Below, in pieces: positions 27,709-49,020 of a stretch of 64,000 bases of DNA. Numbering within the stretch: position 1 is the first letter of the stretch; each line of letters opens with the position of its first letter. A model generated the notes under the pieces. The model searched no databases. It was not told the DNA's origin and worked only from the letters and a program-made list of their open reading frames with translations. A program made the position numbers and the translations under genes. Origin of the DNA: Hyphomicrobiales bacterium (GTDB lineage Bacteria > Pseudomonadota > Alphaproteobacteria > Rhizobiales > Xanthobacteraceae); NCBI GenBank assembly GCA_017305665.1, contig JAFKKH010000012.1, positions 304,141 to 368,140 on the forward strand, given 5' to 3'.

Positions 27709-27726
27709 ATGTGATGTACATCACAT
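27709..27726. promoter_or_regulatory. CRP/FNR-type perfect palindrome
   Basis: ATGTGATGTACATCACAT is a perfect 18-bp palindrome of the TGTGA-N6-TCACA form. It lies 53 bp upstream of the ATG at 27779, a good position for a CRP- or FixK-family activator or repressor. Confidence 0.7.
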
Positions 27727-27778: not shown

Positions 27779-28111
27779 ATGCGCACAATCATCCTCATGG
27801 TTTCGTTGCTTCTGTTCTCGGGCGCCGCCGAGGCCGGACAAATGCGCGGGCTGACGCTGGCCTCGAATGCGCCGGCGGTCGAGCAGACCGAGCAGTCCCA
27901 GCCCTCCACGCTAGTGCACCAAGCGCAGCCGCCGGCCCGGACGGAAAATCACACCGCGACCAAGACCGATACGAAAGCGGAGCAGACGTGCGGCACGCGC
28001 GAGCAACCGCGCGATGACGATGACAGGCGCAATCGCAGGCCGGTGCGGCATCACGAGAGCGACGAGCACAAGGCGCGCCGCATCGCCGCGCACTACGGGA
28101 TTTATTGGTGA
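27779..28111 (+). CDS. small secreted hydrophilic protein
   Basis: 110 residues. Ribosome site AAAGGGAGACCGTC before the ATG. Signal peptide IILMVSLLLFSGAAEA, cleavage probably before GQMRG. The mature part is Gln/Pro/Arg rich, with a single cysteine (EQTCGTREQ) and a terminal segment HKARRIAAHYGIYW. No known domain. It has its own CRP/FNR-like palindrome and is divergent from the membrane operon. Probably periplasmic, possibly stress-induced. Confidence 0.75.
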   Translation: MRTIILMVSLLLFSGAAEAGQMRGLTLASNAPAVEQTEQSQPSTLVHQAQPPARTENHTATKTDTKAEQTCGTREQPRDDDDRRNRRPVRHHESDEHKARRIAAHYGIYW

Positions 28112-42656: not shown

Positions 42657-42839
42657 TTATTGCGCGGCCGCGGTCCAGACCGCGTAAGGCACTTCCTGGC
42701 CGGTCGCCTTGTCGAGCCGCAGGCCGACATCCAGCACGCCGTCCGCTGAGCGGATTTCATAAGCCCATGTCTGCCCGCCGCTGACGAGATGGATTTCGTC
42801 GGTGGTCAGGTCGCGGATACCGCTGATCGGTCCGGTCAT
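42657..42839 (-). CDS. double-glycine leader peptide 1
   Basis: 60 residues, ATG 42839 with AGGAGACCGGC upstream. Leader GIRDLTTDEIHLVSGG (residues 7-22), then QTWAYEIRSADGVLDVGL and a short C-terminal part. The Gly-Gly with preceding E-I-x-x-V-S is the double-glycine secretion motif processed by C39 peptidase ABC exporters. No exporter gene is in the window. Divergent from peptide 2, sharing the palindrome at 42906-42919. Confidence 0.8.
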   Translation of the reverse strand: MTGPISGIRDLTTDEIHLVSGGQTWAYEIRSADGVLDVGLRLDKATGQEVPYAVWTAAAQ

Positions 42840-42905
42840 GCCGGTCTCCTGTCTGGTGGTTCGCTTTGTCCCGGACAGGTGTAGCCGGCCGCGCCGCGTG
42901 GCGAC

Positions 42906-42919
42906 GTGATCCAGATCAC
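42906..42919. promoter_or_regulatory. CRP/FNR/FixK-like palindrome between two GG peptides
   Basis: GTGATCCAGATCAC; GTGA-N6-TCAC, with the TGATC-N2-GATCA core of FNR/FixK sites. It lies 67 bp before peptide 1 and 77 bp before peptide 2. Confidence 0.65.
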
Positions 42920-42996
42920 AGCCGCCGCTTCGTTCGCCGGGCAGGGTGCGTTCACGGTCGACAACGCCGCCGCAACCCTCACCACGGAGAACGATC

Positions 42997-43188
42997 ATGC
43001 CCACGATTCAGGACGATACCGCCGCGATCCGCCAACTGACGGGCGCCGAGCTCGACGCTGTCAGCGGCGGCGAGATTCCGCTGCGCGGATACGGTCCGCC
43101 GCGCCTCAACATCTCGCCCTTCTCGGTGAATGCGCCGCTCGATCCCGCCTGGGAATTGCGCGGCTTGCCGCCGCAGCCTCCCGGCTGA
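42997..43188 (+). CDS. double-glycine leader peptide 2
   Basis: 63 residues, ATG 42997 with ACGGAGAACGATC upstream. Leader AIRQLTGAELDAVSGG, then a mature part EIPLRGYGPPRLNISPFSVN, rich in Pro and aromatic/Leu residues. The core (VSGG) matches peptide 1 and the peptides at 45 kb. A hairpin terminator follows (43208-43244). Confidence 0.82.
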   Translation: MPTIQDDTAAIRQLTGAELDAVSGGEIPLRGYGPPRLNISPFSVNAPLDPAWELRGLPPQPPG

Positions 43189-43207
43189 CCCGTCCTGTGC
43201 GGTTCCA

Positions 43208-43244
43208 GGGCCGGCGGCCATGCCGGCTCCGGCCCGAAAGTTTT
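43208..43244 (+). terminator. terminator after GG peptide 2
   Basis: Stem GGGCCGG / CCGGCCC with an inner GCCGGC-like hairpin, then GAAAGTTTT. Confidence 0.7.
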
Positions 43245-43301
43245 GATTAAGATTCACCGCTCATTCTACGCAAACTTTGTATGCGTACCGGGAGAATGCC
43301 C

Positions 43302-43403
43302 ATGCTGACCACCGAACCTGGTTTGGCCCGGAATTTTCTGAACATCGCGTTCGCCGGCTTCGGCGTGCTGGTCGCAGTGCTGATAGCGGTAGCGCTGGCC
43401 TGA
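43302..43403 (+). CDS. 33-residue single-span membrane peptide
   Basis: Reads MLTTEPGLARNFLNIAFAGF and ends with GVLVAVLIAVALA. GGGAG ribosome site 7 bp upstream; the ATG at 43296 is too close to it. One transmembrane helix with a short N-terminus. Small membrane peptides of this kind often modulate larger membrane complexes; no partner is suggested here. It sits within the small-gene island. Confidence 0.65.
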   Translation: MLTTEPGLARNFLNIAFAGFGVLVAVLIAVALA

Positions 43404-43485
43404 TATCCCGCGCGATACTCGGCCCAGACGAGGGCCGGGACACCCCGGTCAGGGATGCCGCGGCTCAACCGACTGGAACGACGAC

Positions 43486-43938
43486 GTGAGTGACAATAGC
43501 GGCGCGGACAAAGGGTTGCTGGCGCTGATCCAGGGCGTTCTGGGCACGCGCCATAGCACGCCATCGCCAGAACCCGAACTGCCCCGCGACGAGCCGCAGC
43601 AGGAACAGGCTCCGGCCGAAGCCGCCGAGCCGCCTCAGGAGGCCGAGAGCCCGGCGGCGGAGACCGTCGCCGTGACTGAGCCGGATCGTCCGGCCGAAAC
43701 CTACGACCGCCGCAAAACCGCGGACGAACTGGCTGGCATCATCCTGAAAGCCCTGCAGACGCTCGACGGGGCACCGGCGAGCGGGTTTGTCGTCACGGTT
43801 TACGGTGGCAATCCCTGGAATGCGATGCTGACGATCAAGCCGGACGCCGGCCCGATCGCCGACCCAGGCCTATGGCGGGCACGCGTCCGCGAAATGGCAG
43901 TGCGGCTGCGACAGGATTTCGACCTGTCAGACGGCTAG
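43486..43938 (+). CDS. conserved hypothetical protein
   Basis: 150 residues from GTG 43486. The N-terminal half is acidic and Pro/Glu/Ala rich (disordered), the C-terminal half compact: RKTADELAGIILKALQTLDG, SGFVVTVYGGNPWNAMLTIK and LWRARVREMAVRLRQDFDL. The globular part may be an alpha/beta domain of unknown family. No strong ribosome site for the GTG. Cytosolic. Confidence 0.65.
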   Translation: MSDNSGADKGLLALIQGVLGTRHSTPSPEPELPRDEPQQEQAPAEAAEPPQEAESPAAETVAVTEPDRPAETYDRRKTADELAGIILKALQTLDGAPASGFVVTVYGGNPWNAMLTIKPDAGPIADPGLWRARVREMAVRLRQDFDLSDG

Positions 43939-44011
43939 GGCCTGCTTTCGATTTGAAATTCCCGAAGGGCGCGAAAGCGGCCCGAGGGCCGCGAAGGCGG
44001 GGCCGTCCGTG

Positions 44012-44101
44012 TTACGGACGCGACCAGTAACCATCCAGCGCGTGAGCCAGGAAAATGCCGGCGCTCATGACTCCGAAGACAGCGGTAATGGTATCCAACA
44101 T
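44012..44101 (-). CDS. 29-residue membrane peptide
   Basis: Reads MLDTITAVFGVMSAGIFLAH and ALDGYWSRP. AGGACG 9 bp upstream of the ATG at 44101. One hydrophobic span plus a short aromatic tail. Likely a genuine small membrane protein of the family seen in related genomes (AGIFLAHALD-type, from memory); no function known. Confidence 0.55.
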   Translation of the reverse strand: MLDTITAVFGVMSAGIFLAHALDGYWSRP

Positions 44102-44226
44102 TGCGGTTCGTCCTGTACCCAGCGCGTTCAGCAAACGGCAAACCGGACTGCACAGTCAAAATGAATCTCGCGAGCTGGCCGACTCCATTCCGTGTTGATG
44201 ATTCCGCGCAACACATCGGCCAGAGG

Positions 44227-44499
44227 TTAATGGCCGAGTGCCTGGGATGAACGGCGATCAATCGGGCGGGTGCGTGGGCTCGCAGGCTGCGGCCCGGCCT
44301 GCTTCGGCTTGATCGGCGATTCCACGTGGCTTGGCGTGACCTCGGCACCGGCGTCCCGAACCTTGTGGACGGTCGTACCGGTCGGCGCGGTGGGCCGCTG
44401 GCTGGGAAACAGGCTGGTGTGGTCGGTCACGAACAGCGTCCCTGCGGAAACGATGGCGATGATCGCCACAATCGTGGCGGGCTTGCGCAGAAGATTCAC
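44227..44499 (-). CDS. hypothetical exported protein
   Basis: 90 residues from a GTG at 44499. N-terminal signal/anchor RKPATIVAIIAIVSAGTLFV, then a Pro/Thr/Gln-rich tail (SLFPSQRPTAPTGTTVHKVR, SPIKPKQAGPQPASPRTRP). No ribosome site is obvious for the GTG, which lowers confidence. A single-pass periplasm-facing protein if real. Confidence 0.5.
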   Translation of the reverse strand: MNLLRKPATIVAIIAIVSAGTLFVTDHTSLFPSQRPTAPTGTTVHKVRDAGAEVTPSHVESPIKPKQAGPQPASPRTRPIDRRSSQALGH

Positions 44500-44570
44500 C
44501 TGCGAGCAACGTCTGCGGCTATCGTGGCGTTCCGGTATGGCCTCGCCCGAAAAAGAGAGGTTCGCGCCTG

Positions 44571-44747
44571 TCAGGCGGCGCGCGCGGCCTGGAGCTGACG
44601 GCGCAACTTCGCGGCCTGTATGCGCAGTTTCTTCGCCAGGCTGGTGTTGTAGAGCCGCGCCTCGGGATCGGTAGCGAGGTCGGCAATCAACTGGCTTTCG
44701 AGGCTGCGGGCTTCGAGCTGTTCGATGCGGTTCTGTAAATCGGTCAT
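44571..44747 (-). CDS. 58-residue coiled-coil protein
   Basis: ATG 44747 with AAGGAGCC upstream. MTDLQNRIEQLEARSLESQL is followed by IADLATDPEARLYNTSLAKK and LRIQAAKLRRQLQAARAA, helical throughout with heptad-like hydrophobic spacing. The 5' leader contains TTGCGCTCCCGCC, whose GCUCC can pair with the SD (see the leader feature). Probably a cytosolic stress or chaperone-like small protein. Family not recognised. Confidence 0.7.
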   Translation of the reverse strand: MTDLQNRIEQLEARSLESQLIADLATDPEARLYNTSLAKKLRIQAAKLRRQLQAARAA

Positions 44748-44750
44748 GGC

Positions 44751-44786
44751 CGGCTCCTTCCTTACCTGAATGGGCGGGAGCGCAAA
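44751..44786 (-). promoter_or_regulatory. SD-sequestering leader of the 58-residue gene
   Basis: On the minus strand UUUGCGCUCCCGCC is followed, after 13 nt, by AAGGAGCC. GCUCC (plus 44777-44781) can pair with GGAGC (plus 44753-44757). Weaker than the two leaders at 45.8 and 46.8 kb but with the same sequence start. Confidence 0.5.
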
Positions 44787-44840
44787 CGGTCCCTCTGTAG
44801 AGAACGGCGATGATTGAACTATGCGCCGGACGGCCGGAAA

Positions 44841-44864
44841 GTTCTGTCCACTAGTGGACAGAAC
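44841..44864. promoter_or_regulatory. 24-bp perfect palindrome
   Basis: GTTCTGTCCACT followed directly by its exact complement. It lies 94 bp upstream of the 58-residue gene, between that gene and a terminator. The CTGTCC/GGACAG arms recall lux-box-type sites of LuxR regulators in this family, but LuxR binding is a guess. The perfect length makes chance unlikely. Confidence 0.65.
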
Positions 44865-44929
44865 GGCTGCGGCTTTTGGTCGGCGCCAACATGCGGAAAC
44901 CGGGAACGGCAGAGGCAGGAACGGCAGAG

Positions 44930-44956
44930 AAAAGGCCGCCACACGGCGGCCTTTTT
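44930..44956. terminator. hairpin terminator for the GG peptide operon
   Basis: Perfect 10-bp stem AAAGGCCGCC / GGCGGCCTTT with a 4-nt loop and T5; oriented to end the minus-strand peptide genes and also usable from the other side. Confidence 0.85.
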
Positions 44957-44979
44957 GTGGTTCTCCGCCCGCCGCGGGA

Positions 44980-45159
44980 TCAGACGTAAACGATCACCGG
45001 TGTGGGATCGACCGGGATGGTCGGACCGGTCGAGGGCGGGAAGGGAAACAGCGGACCCTTGCCCACATGCAGCGACAGGCCGCCTGCGACGGCATCGATC
45101 TCGCCATCGTCGAGAATGCGGATCCGGTCGGCAAAATCGCGGGTGTTGAATTCGGTCAT
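44980..45159 (-). CDS. double-glycine leader peptide 3
   Basis: 59 residues, ATG 45159 with AGGAGACGACA upstream. The leader includes RIRILDDGEIDAVAGG, then LSLHVGKGPLFPFPPS and a Pro/Thr/Ile-rich C-terminus (PTIPVDPTPVIVYV). The E-I-D-A-V-[S/A]-G-G site matches peptide 4 and peptides 1-2. Just 65 bp downstream of peptide 4 and probably in one operon. Confidence 0.82.
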   Translation of the reverse strand: MTEFNTRDFADRIRILDDGEIDAVAGGLSLHVGKGPLFPFPPSTGPTIPVDPTPVIVYV

Positions 45160-45224
45160 TGTCGTCTCCTGTACAAGGCGGGGCGGGGACTGTTCCCGCC
45201 ACCTCTGGTTACTTGTCGCTGGGA

Positions 45225-45392
45225 TTACTTGCCGCCGGCCCTGGCCGCCTTGGTCGCTGCGATCGCGTTGTCGACAGCGGTATCGATCAGCATCAGGCCG
45301 CCGATGATGATGGCTGCGTCCGACAGGGACACCGCGCCGCCGCTGACGGCGTCGATCTCGTTGACGTCAAGTTCGCGCACTTCGTTGGTCAT
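45225..45392 (-). CDS. double-glycine leader peptide 4
   Basis: 55 residues, ATG 45392 with AGGAGCGAGAC upstream. Leader EVRELDVNEIDAVSGG, then a hydrophobic AVSLSDAAIIIGGLMLIDTA and NAIAATKAARAGGK. The mature part looks like a class II bacteriocin-style membrane-active peptide, or a hydrophobic substrate for a dedicated exporter. The GTGA-N6-TCAC palindrome lies 83 bp upstream. Confidence 0.85.
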   Translation of the reverse strand: MTNEVRELDVNEIDAVSGGAVSLSDAAIIIGGLMLIDTAVDNAIAATKAARAGGK

Positions 45393-45474
45393 GTCTCGCT
45401 CCTGCTGTGCTTGCGGGGGACCATTCCCTTCATCCGCTGGTCGCAGGAGTAGGCGGTGGCGTTCGCCGCCGCCG

Positions 45475-45488
45475 TGATGGAAGTCACA
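45475..45488. promoter_or_regulatory. CRP/FNR-like palindrome before GG peptide operon
   Basis: GTGATGGAAGTCAC; GTGA-N6-TCAC (inner bases not symmetric) 83 bp upstream of peptide 4. Confidence 0.55.
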
Positions 45489-45586
45489 CCGCAAGAAGAG
45501 ACCGGCCGCAAGGACGGCGTTCCGATGTGAGCGTCCTCACACGTCGCGAGCCGAGAGCTTTGACCAAATCGCCGCCTGGGCGGCCG

Positions 45587-45787
45587 TCACACTGGCGTTT
45601 GCAATCCGGACGAATTCACCCAGCCGTCGAGATGCGCTGCCGTGTCGGCTTGACGGGCCTTCCTGAGCAGCTCGTCGCGCGCCGCGCTATCCGGCATTTC
45701 GTCGGCCTTCTGGCGCGCCTCAGCCGCAAACTCGGAAAGACGATCCTGAAATGATTTTGTCTGTTTGAAACGATGCCGATGCTGCAT
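45587..45787 (-). CDS. small protein with FKQTKS motif (paralogue 1)
   Basis: 66 residues, ATG 45787 with AAAGGAGCAGCGCC upstream. Sequence starts MQHRHRFKQTKSFQDRLSEF and continues with AAEARQKADEMPDSAARDEL, then RKARQADTAAHLDGWVNSS. It is helical and charged. The protein at 46564-46764 is clearly a paralogue. Probably cytosolic. The leader holds an SD-sequestering hairpin and a CATCACCG hairpin. Confidence 0.78.
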   Translation of the reverse strand: MQHRHRFKQTKSFQDRLSEFAAEARQKADEMPDSAARDELLRKARQADTAAHLDGWVNSSGLQTPV

Positions 45788-45873
45788 GGCGCTGCTCCTT
45801 TCGCTTCGAAGAAGGCGGGAGCGCAATTGGCGTTCTCATCACCGATGGATACCCTTTGGGACGCGCGGTGATG
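45788..45873 (-). promoter_or_regulatory. structured leader A: CATCACCG hairpin plus SD-pairing stem
   Basis: On the minus strand, CATCACCG ... CGGTGATG forms an 8-bp stem (plus 45866-45873 with 45837-45844). Then GAGAACGCCAATTGCGCTCC ... GGAGC pairs over the SD (plus 45818-45822 with 45794-45798), with an inner CUUC/GAAG. Compatible with an RNA thermometer or other translation switch. Confidence 0.6.
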
Positions 45874-46563: not shown

Positions 46564-46764
46564 TTATTTTGGCGGCTGCAATTCGCGGGAGTTTGCCCAT
46601 CCGTCGATCGCGGCGGCGGTCTCGGCCCGCCGCATTTTTCTTTCCAATTCATCGCGCTCAAGGCCGGGGGCCATATTCTCCGTTTTCTGTCGCAGGGCCG
46701 CAGTGAAAGCGGCAAGCCGCTCCCTGAGCGATTTTGTCTGTTTGAAACGACGCCGTTCTGACAT
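46564..46764 (-). CDS. small protein with FKQTKS motif (paralogue 2)
   Basis: 66 residues, ATG 46764 with AAGGAGCGCGCC upstream. MSERRRFKQTKSLRERLAAF, then TAALRQKTENMAPGLERDEL and ERKMRRAETAAAIDGWANSR. Aligns end to end with the protein at 45587-45787 (R-x-FKQTKS-x2-[D/E]RL-x2-F ... RDEL-x-[R/K]K-x-R-x-A-[D/E]-TAA-x2-DGW-x-NS). Preceded by the strongest of the structured leaders and an EcfG-like promoter. Confidence 0.8.
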   Translation of the reverse strand: MSERRRFKQTKSLRERLAAFTAALRQKTENMAPGLERDELERKMRRAETAAAIDGWANSRELQPPK

Positions 46765-46847
46765 GGCGCGCTCCTTCCACTGGAGGAAGGCGGGAGCGCA
46801 ATCGGGCGTTCTCATCACCGATGAGTACCTGGAGCCGTGCGGTGATG
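46765..46847 (-). promoter_or_regulatory. structured leader B: CATCACCG hairpin plus SD-pairing stem
   Basis: GCGCTCC (plus 46793-46799) pairs perfectly with GGAGCGC (plus 46768-46774), a 7-bp stem that includes the SD, with an inner 5-bp CTTCC/GGAAG stem. Upstream, an 8-bp CATCACCG/CGGTGATG stem (plus 46840-46847 with 46813-46820) starts about where transcription should begin. Confidence 0.7.
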
Positions 46848-46853
46848 CGGATT

Positions 46854-46877
46854 AACGTATCGCGGCCTGGATAGTTC
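46854..46877 (-). promoter_or_regulatory. EcfG-like promoter B
   Basis: On the minus strand TGAAC-N16-CGTT (GAAC at plus 46874-46877, CGTT at 46854-46857). The general-stress EcfG consensus is GGAAC-N16-17-CGTT; only the first G differs. Confidence 0.5.
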
Positions 46878-48740: not shown

Positions 48741-48746
48741 GGTTTG

Positions 48747-48818
48747 GAGCATGATCCCGACCCGAAGGGCCGCGTCCACGCAAAGTGGAAACCGGTTTTC
48801 GGATAGGATCATGCGCTC
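48747..48818. repeat. palindromic repeat after recA
   Basis: GAGCATGATCC ... GGATCATGCGCTC, with an inner GGAAACCGGTTTTC hairpin; a well-known rhizobial intergenic repeat type. It may form the recA terminator. Confidence 0.75.
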
Positions 48819-49020
48819 TCAAAATTAAGTTTCGAAGCCCGGCCGCGTTCATTGGCCGGGTCGGTGCGATCCGGAAAAGACGGGAATCCTTTTCGGGAAG
48901 CGTACGTCGCACCTTTCGGAAGCGAAGCGGGCGTTGTGGATGTTGAGTTGCCGACATCCCCAGCGCCCGATTTGTTTTTGATGTGCTAACTCGATGAGAC
49001 CCGTCATCCTTCCACAACAG

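Follow-up and report, generated by a model that had tools for sequence, protein, structure and literature searches.

The DNA analysed here is a stretch of 64,000 nucleotides (nt), referred to as the window, from a Nitrobacter genome (assembly GCA_017305665.1, contig JAFKKH010000012.1, positions 304,141 to 368,140). It carries four small genes, P1 to P4, whose products begin with a double-glycine (GG) leader, and these genes very probably belong to a co-regulated multi-peptide regulon whose products are exported by a C39 peptidase-containing ATP-binding cassette (ABC) transporter. This reading is based on the co-occurrence of exporter and leader across genomes, on the linkage of the two in Bradyrhizobiaceae bacterium FeB_22, on the ratio of nonsynonymous to synonymous substitution rates (dN/dS), on a common promoter, on a shuffle control and on degraded copies in genomes that do not carry the system. 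The four genes of the window are the following.

42657..42839, minus strand: P1, 60 amino acids (22-residue leader, 38-residue core), with ATG, Shine-Dalgarno (SD) sequence and leader.
42997..43188, plus strand: P2, 63 amino acids (25-residue leader, 38-residue Pro-rich core), with ATG, SD sequence, leader and promoter site.
44980..45159, minus strand: P3, 59 amino acids (27-residue leader, 32-residue Pro-rich core), with ATG, SD sequence and leader.
45225..45392, minus strand: P4, 55 amino acids (19-residue leader, 36-residue hydrophobic core), with ATG, SD sequence and leader.

The original prediction, made from the letters of the window, was that four open reading frames (ORFs) of 55-63 codons share a double-glycine leader, and this was borne out, since all four (4/4) have an ATG and a GGAG-type ribosome site and their number exceeds the shuffle expectation. 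A slightly loosened leader motif occurs four times in the window, each time behind an ATG and SD sequence, whereas 300 dinucleotide-preserving shuffles of the window yielded a mean of 0.013 motifs, a maximum of one and none with ATG and SD. The motif had been placed at residues 15-27, which is correct for P1, P2 and P3 and incorrect for P4, where it occupies residues 12-19. The description of the genes as unlinked-looking does not really hold, because divergent P1 and P2 share one palindrome and P4 and P3 look like a tandem unit, of which P4 is the probable first gene. Exact DNA patterns gave seven matches in the whole genome (5.03 Mb), namely the four of the window, two further peptide genes and one chance occurrence, and reversed control patterns gave none in the same sequence; the match C22:8213 was rejected as a peptide gene, being out of frame within a larger gene. 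That the ORFs and their motif are products of chance, as one of the seven pattern matches is, can scarcely be believed, since it is contradicted by the shuffle control, dN/dS, the promoter sites and the co-occurrence with the exporter.

Further ORFs of the form E-[IL]-[DH]-x-V-[SA]-GG had also been anticipated, and by means of a leader profile together with a position matrix nine more were located on six contigs (two on C11, three on C15, of which two form a pair, and one each on C8, C36, C43 and C47). The genome thus holds 13 such genes on seven contigs, that of the window included, all with ATG and SD sequence. In 11 of its leaders, which are 19-27 amino acids long, L, G and G are invariant and R, E and S are present in at least 90%; the weakest leaders are those of the C43 and C47 genes (25 and 22 bits, versus 35-42 for the 11 leaders from which the matrix was built). 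The cores are neutral to acidic in 12 of the 13 peptides and hydrophobic in P4 and P11. All 13 score below every curated Pfam and NCBIfam cut-off (TIGR03949, TIGR01847, NF038167, NF033456 and PF10439 included), and several have weak sub-threshold matches to bacteriocin leader models. The Nif11/NHLP, CCRG-2 and CTB peptide families resemble them in having a double-glycine leader and, in principle, C39 export, and differ in that the leaders here are 19-27 amino acids long and all matches fall below the curated cut-offs.

It had been proposed that the exporter and any maturation enzymes lie elsewhere on the chromosome, and for the exporter this holds. A PF03412 search of the genome matched two genes, of which one (contig C3, L003:9473-11638) encodes a catalytically complete C39 ABC exporter with the Cys, His and Asp of the peptidase all present. 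It stands after an HlyD adaptor gene, in an operon of the order membrane 2Fe-2S protein, HlyD adaptor, C39 ABC transporter, on a contig different from all peptide contigs. Among solved structures, the closest chain covering the peptidase region is 4ry2, an 'ABC-type bacteriocin transporter', and a TolC-family protein above its cut-off is encoded on contig C8. The second C39 match was rejected as the exporter; neither the catalytic Cys nor the catalytic His is present in it, an HlyD-type gene of its own accompanies it, and a gene with RTX repeats is close by. Both marks of a double-glycine C39 substrate, a short leader that ends in GG/GA with hydrophobic and Glu positions conserved and a complete C39 exporter in the genome, are therefore present.

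The distribution of leader and exporter was compared in 198 genomes of the family, this one included, with a leader threshold of E ≤ 0.001. Leader matches were obtained in seven genomes: 11 here, eight each in Nitrobacter sp. 62-23 (G135) and Nitrobacter sp. 62-13 (G164), seven in FeB_22 (G054) and one each in G083, G081 and G131. Exporter matches of 69-100% identity were confined to this genome, 62-23, 62-13 and FeB_22 (there as two contig-end pieces), the next best being 46% and 45%. The four genomes with a close exporter orthologue are the same four with at least seven leader matches (chance 1.6e-8), and when this genome is left aside the co-occurrence is three of three in 197. In FeB_22, the genes for the 2Fe-2S protein, HlyD and C39 transporter are directly preceded by seven peptide genes, six of which point the same way as the operon. 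Conservation of the GG across relatives had been named as a sign of such a system: the orthologues compared retain it, and the system itself is rare in the family (leader in 7 of 198 genomes). Among 385 class-level genomes, the leader was found in this genome (13 matches) and in one other (1 match); the profiles derive from the present genome and related ones and would miss leaders that have diverged.

The array of FeB_22 also bears on whether the peptides could be precursors of ribosomally synthesized and post-translationally modified peptides (RiPPs) whose enzymes are encoded elsewhere. Paired Cys residues in the cores of P10, P12, P13 and the FeB_22 peptides, together with weak sub-threshold matches to RiPP models, would suit such precursors; P1 to P4, on the other hand, contain no Cys, and no maturation enzyme gene was seen by eye in or beside the exporter operon, beside the FeB_22 array or in the stretch from operon to array, no genome-wide enzyme search having been made. 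Modification is thus considered improbable, and that part of the earlier proposal which placed enzymes elsewhere has found no counterpart in these stretches. As a separate observation, five array peptides of FeB_22 (L104, 285-2117) have a common core with two conserved Cys and a hairpin predicted at low confidence; a structure model of an FeB_22 peptide gave a weak beta-hairpin with a predicted local distance difference test score (pLDDT) of 62.6, too poor for use.

The peptide genes appear to share a promoter, whose elements in the window are listed below.

42905..42920, unstranded: CRP-type palindrome common to the divergent P1 and P2, 9/10 consensus bases, predicted to act in both directions.
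42878..42883, minus strand: putative -10 element of P1 (TACACC), 22-27 nt past the shared site.
42942..42947, plus strand: putative -10 element of P2 (CAGGGT), 22-27 nt past the shared site.
45473..45488, minus strand: CRP-type site of P4, 9/10 consensus bases.
45446..45451, minus strand: putative -10 element of P4 (TACTCC), 22-27 nt past the site.
45526..45541, unstranded: second CRP-type palindrome, perfect, upstream of P4.

A CRP-type site, defined as at least 8/10 consensus bases of TGTGA-N6-TCACA, lies upstream of 33 of 47 peptide genes (11/13 in this genome, 6/9 in 62-23, 6/8 in 62-13, 8/13 in FeB_22 and 2/4 among single genes), and of the 14 genes without one, 12 follow a peptide gene of the same strand; the remaining pair are the singles of G147 and G131. 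The background is 2.0% of random 130-base-pair (bp) segments of this genome, and 4 of 72 control ORFs have an upstream site, one of them the exporter operon's own HlyD gene; the enrichment in this genome has a Fisher's p of 4.5e-9, with P1 and P2 sharing one site. The exporter operon itself has an 8/10 site at -95 here and at -92 in both 62-23 and 62-13. Downstream of the site, an A occupies the position at 23 nt in 30 of 35 units (11/11 in this genome; any all-A column would arise by chance at ~2.5e-7), and pyrimidines occur at 22 nt (31/35) and 27 nt (29/35). P5 stands outside these 35 rows owing to a tie between two sites, the second of which fits, -10 A included. A -10 element would lie at this distance from an activator site centred at -41.5, as in class II CRP/FNR-dependent promoters, and the palindrome is predicted to occupy that position.

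Some further sites and peptide-like genes were recorded alongside these. An ORF of 110 codons (27779-28111), whose product begins much like a signal peptide, is preceded at a distance of ~55 bp by a perfect TGTGA-N6-TCACA palindrome (27710-27725) and is perhaps another target of the same putative regulator. Orphan GG peptides are encoded in G081 (L099:5189-5386), with a CRP-type site, and in G131 (L093:4563-4700), with none. Beside two exporter relatives of 45-46% identity lie the ORFs L078:10756-11019 and L079:5936-6301; in one case a gene for a glycine-rich GG peptide precedes the relative's HlyD gene, in the other the ORF is peptide-like and carries a GD motif, and a CRP-type site was found at neither.

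The peptide cores are under purifying selection. Of 13 orthologue pairs computed, ten were pooled so that each gene counts once, and these gave a dN/dS of 0.21 for cores and 0.30 for leaders; the unpooled pairs have core values of 0.65 (P10-b5), 0.34 (a9-b5) and 0.39 (P7-b8), each above the pooled 0.21. For the six pairs that include a gene of this genome the core values are 0.30, 0.22, 0.50, 0.18, 0.06 and 0.21, the first of these belonging to P1, whose orthologue in 62-23 is 75% identical, and the second to P3. Among four pairs between 62-23 and 62-13, three cores have zero amino-acid change despite synonymous differences. P3 also looks like a leader/core chimera: its 5' part and leader resemble gene a3 of 62-23 up to the final GG base (58/81 leader bases, versus 42/81 for a2) and its core resembles gene a2 (86/99 bases, versus 38/96 for a3), the two matches overlapping solely within the conserved end of the leader. 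Because the matches switch from a3 to a2 at the GG, it appears, relative to 62-23, that neighbouring leaders recombined at the GG box to give such a chimera.

Gain and loss can be followed in Nitrobacter genomes without the system. The exporter operon is absent from five of six non-carriers searched, where ~80-240 bp remain between its flanks, the sixth ending at a contig edge. The P1/P2 interval measures 150-196 bp in five of six non-carriers and ~330 bp in G019, versus about 600-640 bp here, and the P7/P8 interval measures 50-190 bp in the five non-carriers with both flanks versus about 475-550 bp here. The two inserts fit only two peptide genes and a promoter, and therefore neither contains an immunity gene. 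At the P5/P6 locus most non-carriers are without a counterpart, so that an empty site is unreadable there. Two non-carriers retain degraded copies, a P10 in G083 that is 27 residues shorter and keeps its promoter site and a broken P3-like stretch in G019 (71% over 126 bp), and these two cases would fit decay after loss of the exporter.

That neither insert holds an immunity gene bears on the purpose of the peptides. The class II microcin system is described as having five parts, and four of the five are matched here, namely a GG-leader precursor, a C39 exporter with catalytic triad, an adaptor and a TolC-type channel (CvaA/CvaB-type export; PMC9746304); the same source mentions that 79 Gram-negative genomes were screened in 2003 for peptides of this type in the vicinity of C39 transporters. 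What differs here is that the two resolved inserts contain no immunity gene and that many unlike peptides are present per exporter. An antibacterial role, as bacteriocins of the class II microcin type with unlinked or unusual self-protection, is quite possible, though not the favoured view, as the microcin-type leader, C39 exporter and HlyD adaptor, the weak sub-threshold matches to bacteriocin models and the hydrophobic P4 and P11 would suggest. Classical bacteriocins are nonetheless argued against by the lack of space for an immunity gene at P1/P2 and P7/P8, the only two loci resolved, by the neutral to acidic nature of 12 of 13 cores and by the conservation of the cores between species. Conserved cores and a common regulated promoter would also be expected of signals (pheromones) that neighbours from the same lineage perceive; this is rather unlikely given about a dozen dissimilar cores, and the peptide loci that were read showed no gene for a receptor or response regulator, no systematic search having been made.

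By design, the nearest tested system is EbfG/PteB of Synechococcus elongatus, in which four GG proteins (EbfG1-4) and a C39 transporter are required for biofilm (PMC4997328). Both systems consist of several small GG proteins with no known domain and one C39 peptidase transporter (a pairing that is inferred here from co-occurrence), with Pro-rich and hydrophobic mature parts in both. In Synechococcus the genes form a single polycistronic cluster that precedes the transporter gene region, and the biofilm role is demonstrated, whereas the present system belongs to an alphaproteobacterium, is spread over seven contigs and has a CRP-type promoter. A role at the surface or in the community, as biofilm factors of the EbfG/PteB kind or as signals, would have somewhat better than even prospects and appears likelier than bacteriocins paired with immunity proteins.

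Several observations weigh against a co-regulated, exported peptide set. Exporter and peptide genes are unlinked in this genome, and G083, G081 and G131 each have a single leader match but no close exporter. The CRP-type motif was tested on the very sequences in which it had come to notice; sites with up to two mismatches number 15 across the window versus 16.1 expected, that is, chance level, so that the whole-window count is uninformative and the signal lies solely in where the sites stand and in their association with peptide genes. The exporter operon of FeB_22 has no CRP-type site of its own, and the -10 A at the exporter site is present in this genome only, being absent in 62-23 and 62-13. 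Finally, no orthologue of the P2 or P4 core occurs among the relatives compared, and both genes thus fall outside the selection test.

The regulon reading can be put as a sequence of steps: i) about 13 precursors would form a dispersed regulon in which a putative CRP/FNR-family activator binds TGTGA-N6-TCACA at -41.5; ii) this activator would jointly switch on peptide units and exporter operon, as the sequence suggests; iii) the precursors would be translated, as purifying selection implies; iv) the leader RxLxxxE[IL]DxVSGG would be recognised by the single C39 ABC exporter, and cleavage after the GG would be followed by export via the HlyD adaptor and the TolC-type channel, both as known from the family; and v) the products, of 32-58 residues, would act outside the cell, probably unmodified.

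The first gene of the exporter operon (L003:6694-8235) encodes a membrane protein of 513 residues with a 2Fe-2S domain. The first ~340 residues of this protein are 35-42% identical to six proteins of other Alphaproteobacteria (L105-L110) and align with membrane adenylate cyclases that have a 2Fe-2S domain; in all four scanned of the six a cyclase domain follows the 2Fe-2S domain, whereas the operon protein has none and ends in ~150 residues without a Pfam match, which may resemble the periplasmic domain of an anti-sigma protein. A structure model (mean pLDDT 60.9, below 50 at the C-terminus) is usable for about residues 8-345; its ferredoxin part resembles ferredoxins (E 7.6e-5), and for its membrane part there is a weak match to the cytochrome b subunit of quinol:fumarate reductase (E 0.02, probability 1.00). 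Given the absent cyclase domain, a sensor role is inference only. A wider proposal is tentative: that a single CRP-type class II switch governs a repertoire of a dozen unmodified peptides which a nitrite oxidiser sends out to its surroundings, that a heme/2Fe-2S membrane sensor, descended from an adenylate cyclase of the redox type and encoded alongside the exporter, couples their release to respiratory state, and that new peptides arise when tandem leaders recombine at the GG box.

Two further features of the window were recorded. On the minus strand, at 44720-44815, 45770-45865 and 46760-46860, a conserved stretch lies just before the start of three small genes and contains an invariant TTGCGCTCCCGCC, then AAGGAGC, then the start; it is possibly a common 5' regulatory element, and an Rfam scan of 40-50 kb of the window gave no match. 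At ~48743-48830 lies a dispersed repeat of ~70-85 bp, with many copies of ~85-95% identity in other Nitrobacter genomes among the matches listed.

Among the matches listed in the open-access literature, no secreted-peptide system of this kind was found in Nitrobacter, the one relevant passage concerning another toxin class; nitrite-oxidising bacteria would thus gain an unreported secreted-peptide system. Such peptides are usually sought beside the exporter; those described here are encoded away from it and match no curated family, so that a leader profile together with a common promoter provides a way to list them. The purpose of GG peptides without an adjacent immunity gene would also become testable through a single exporter knockout.

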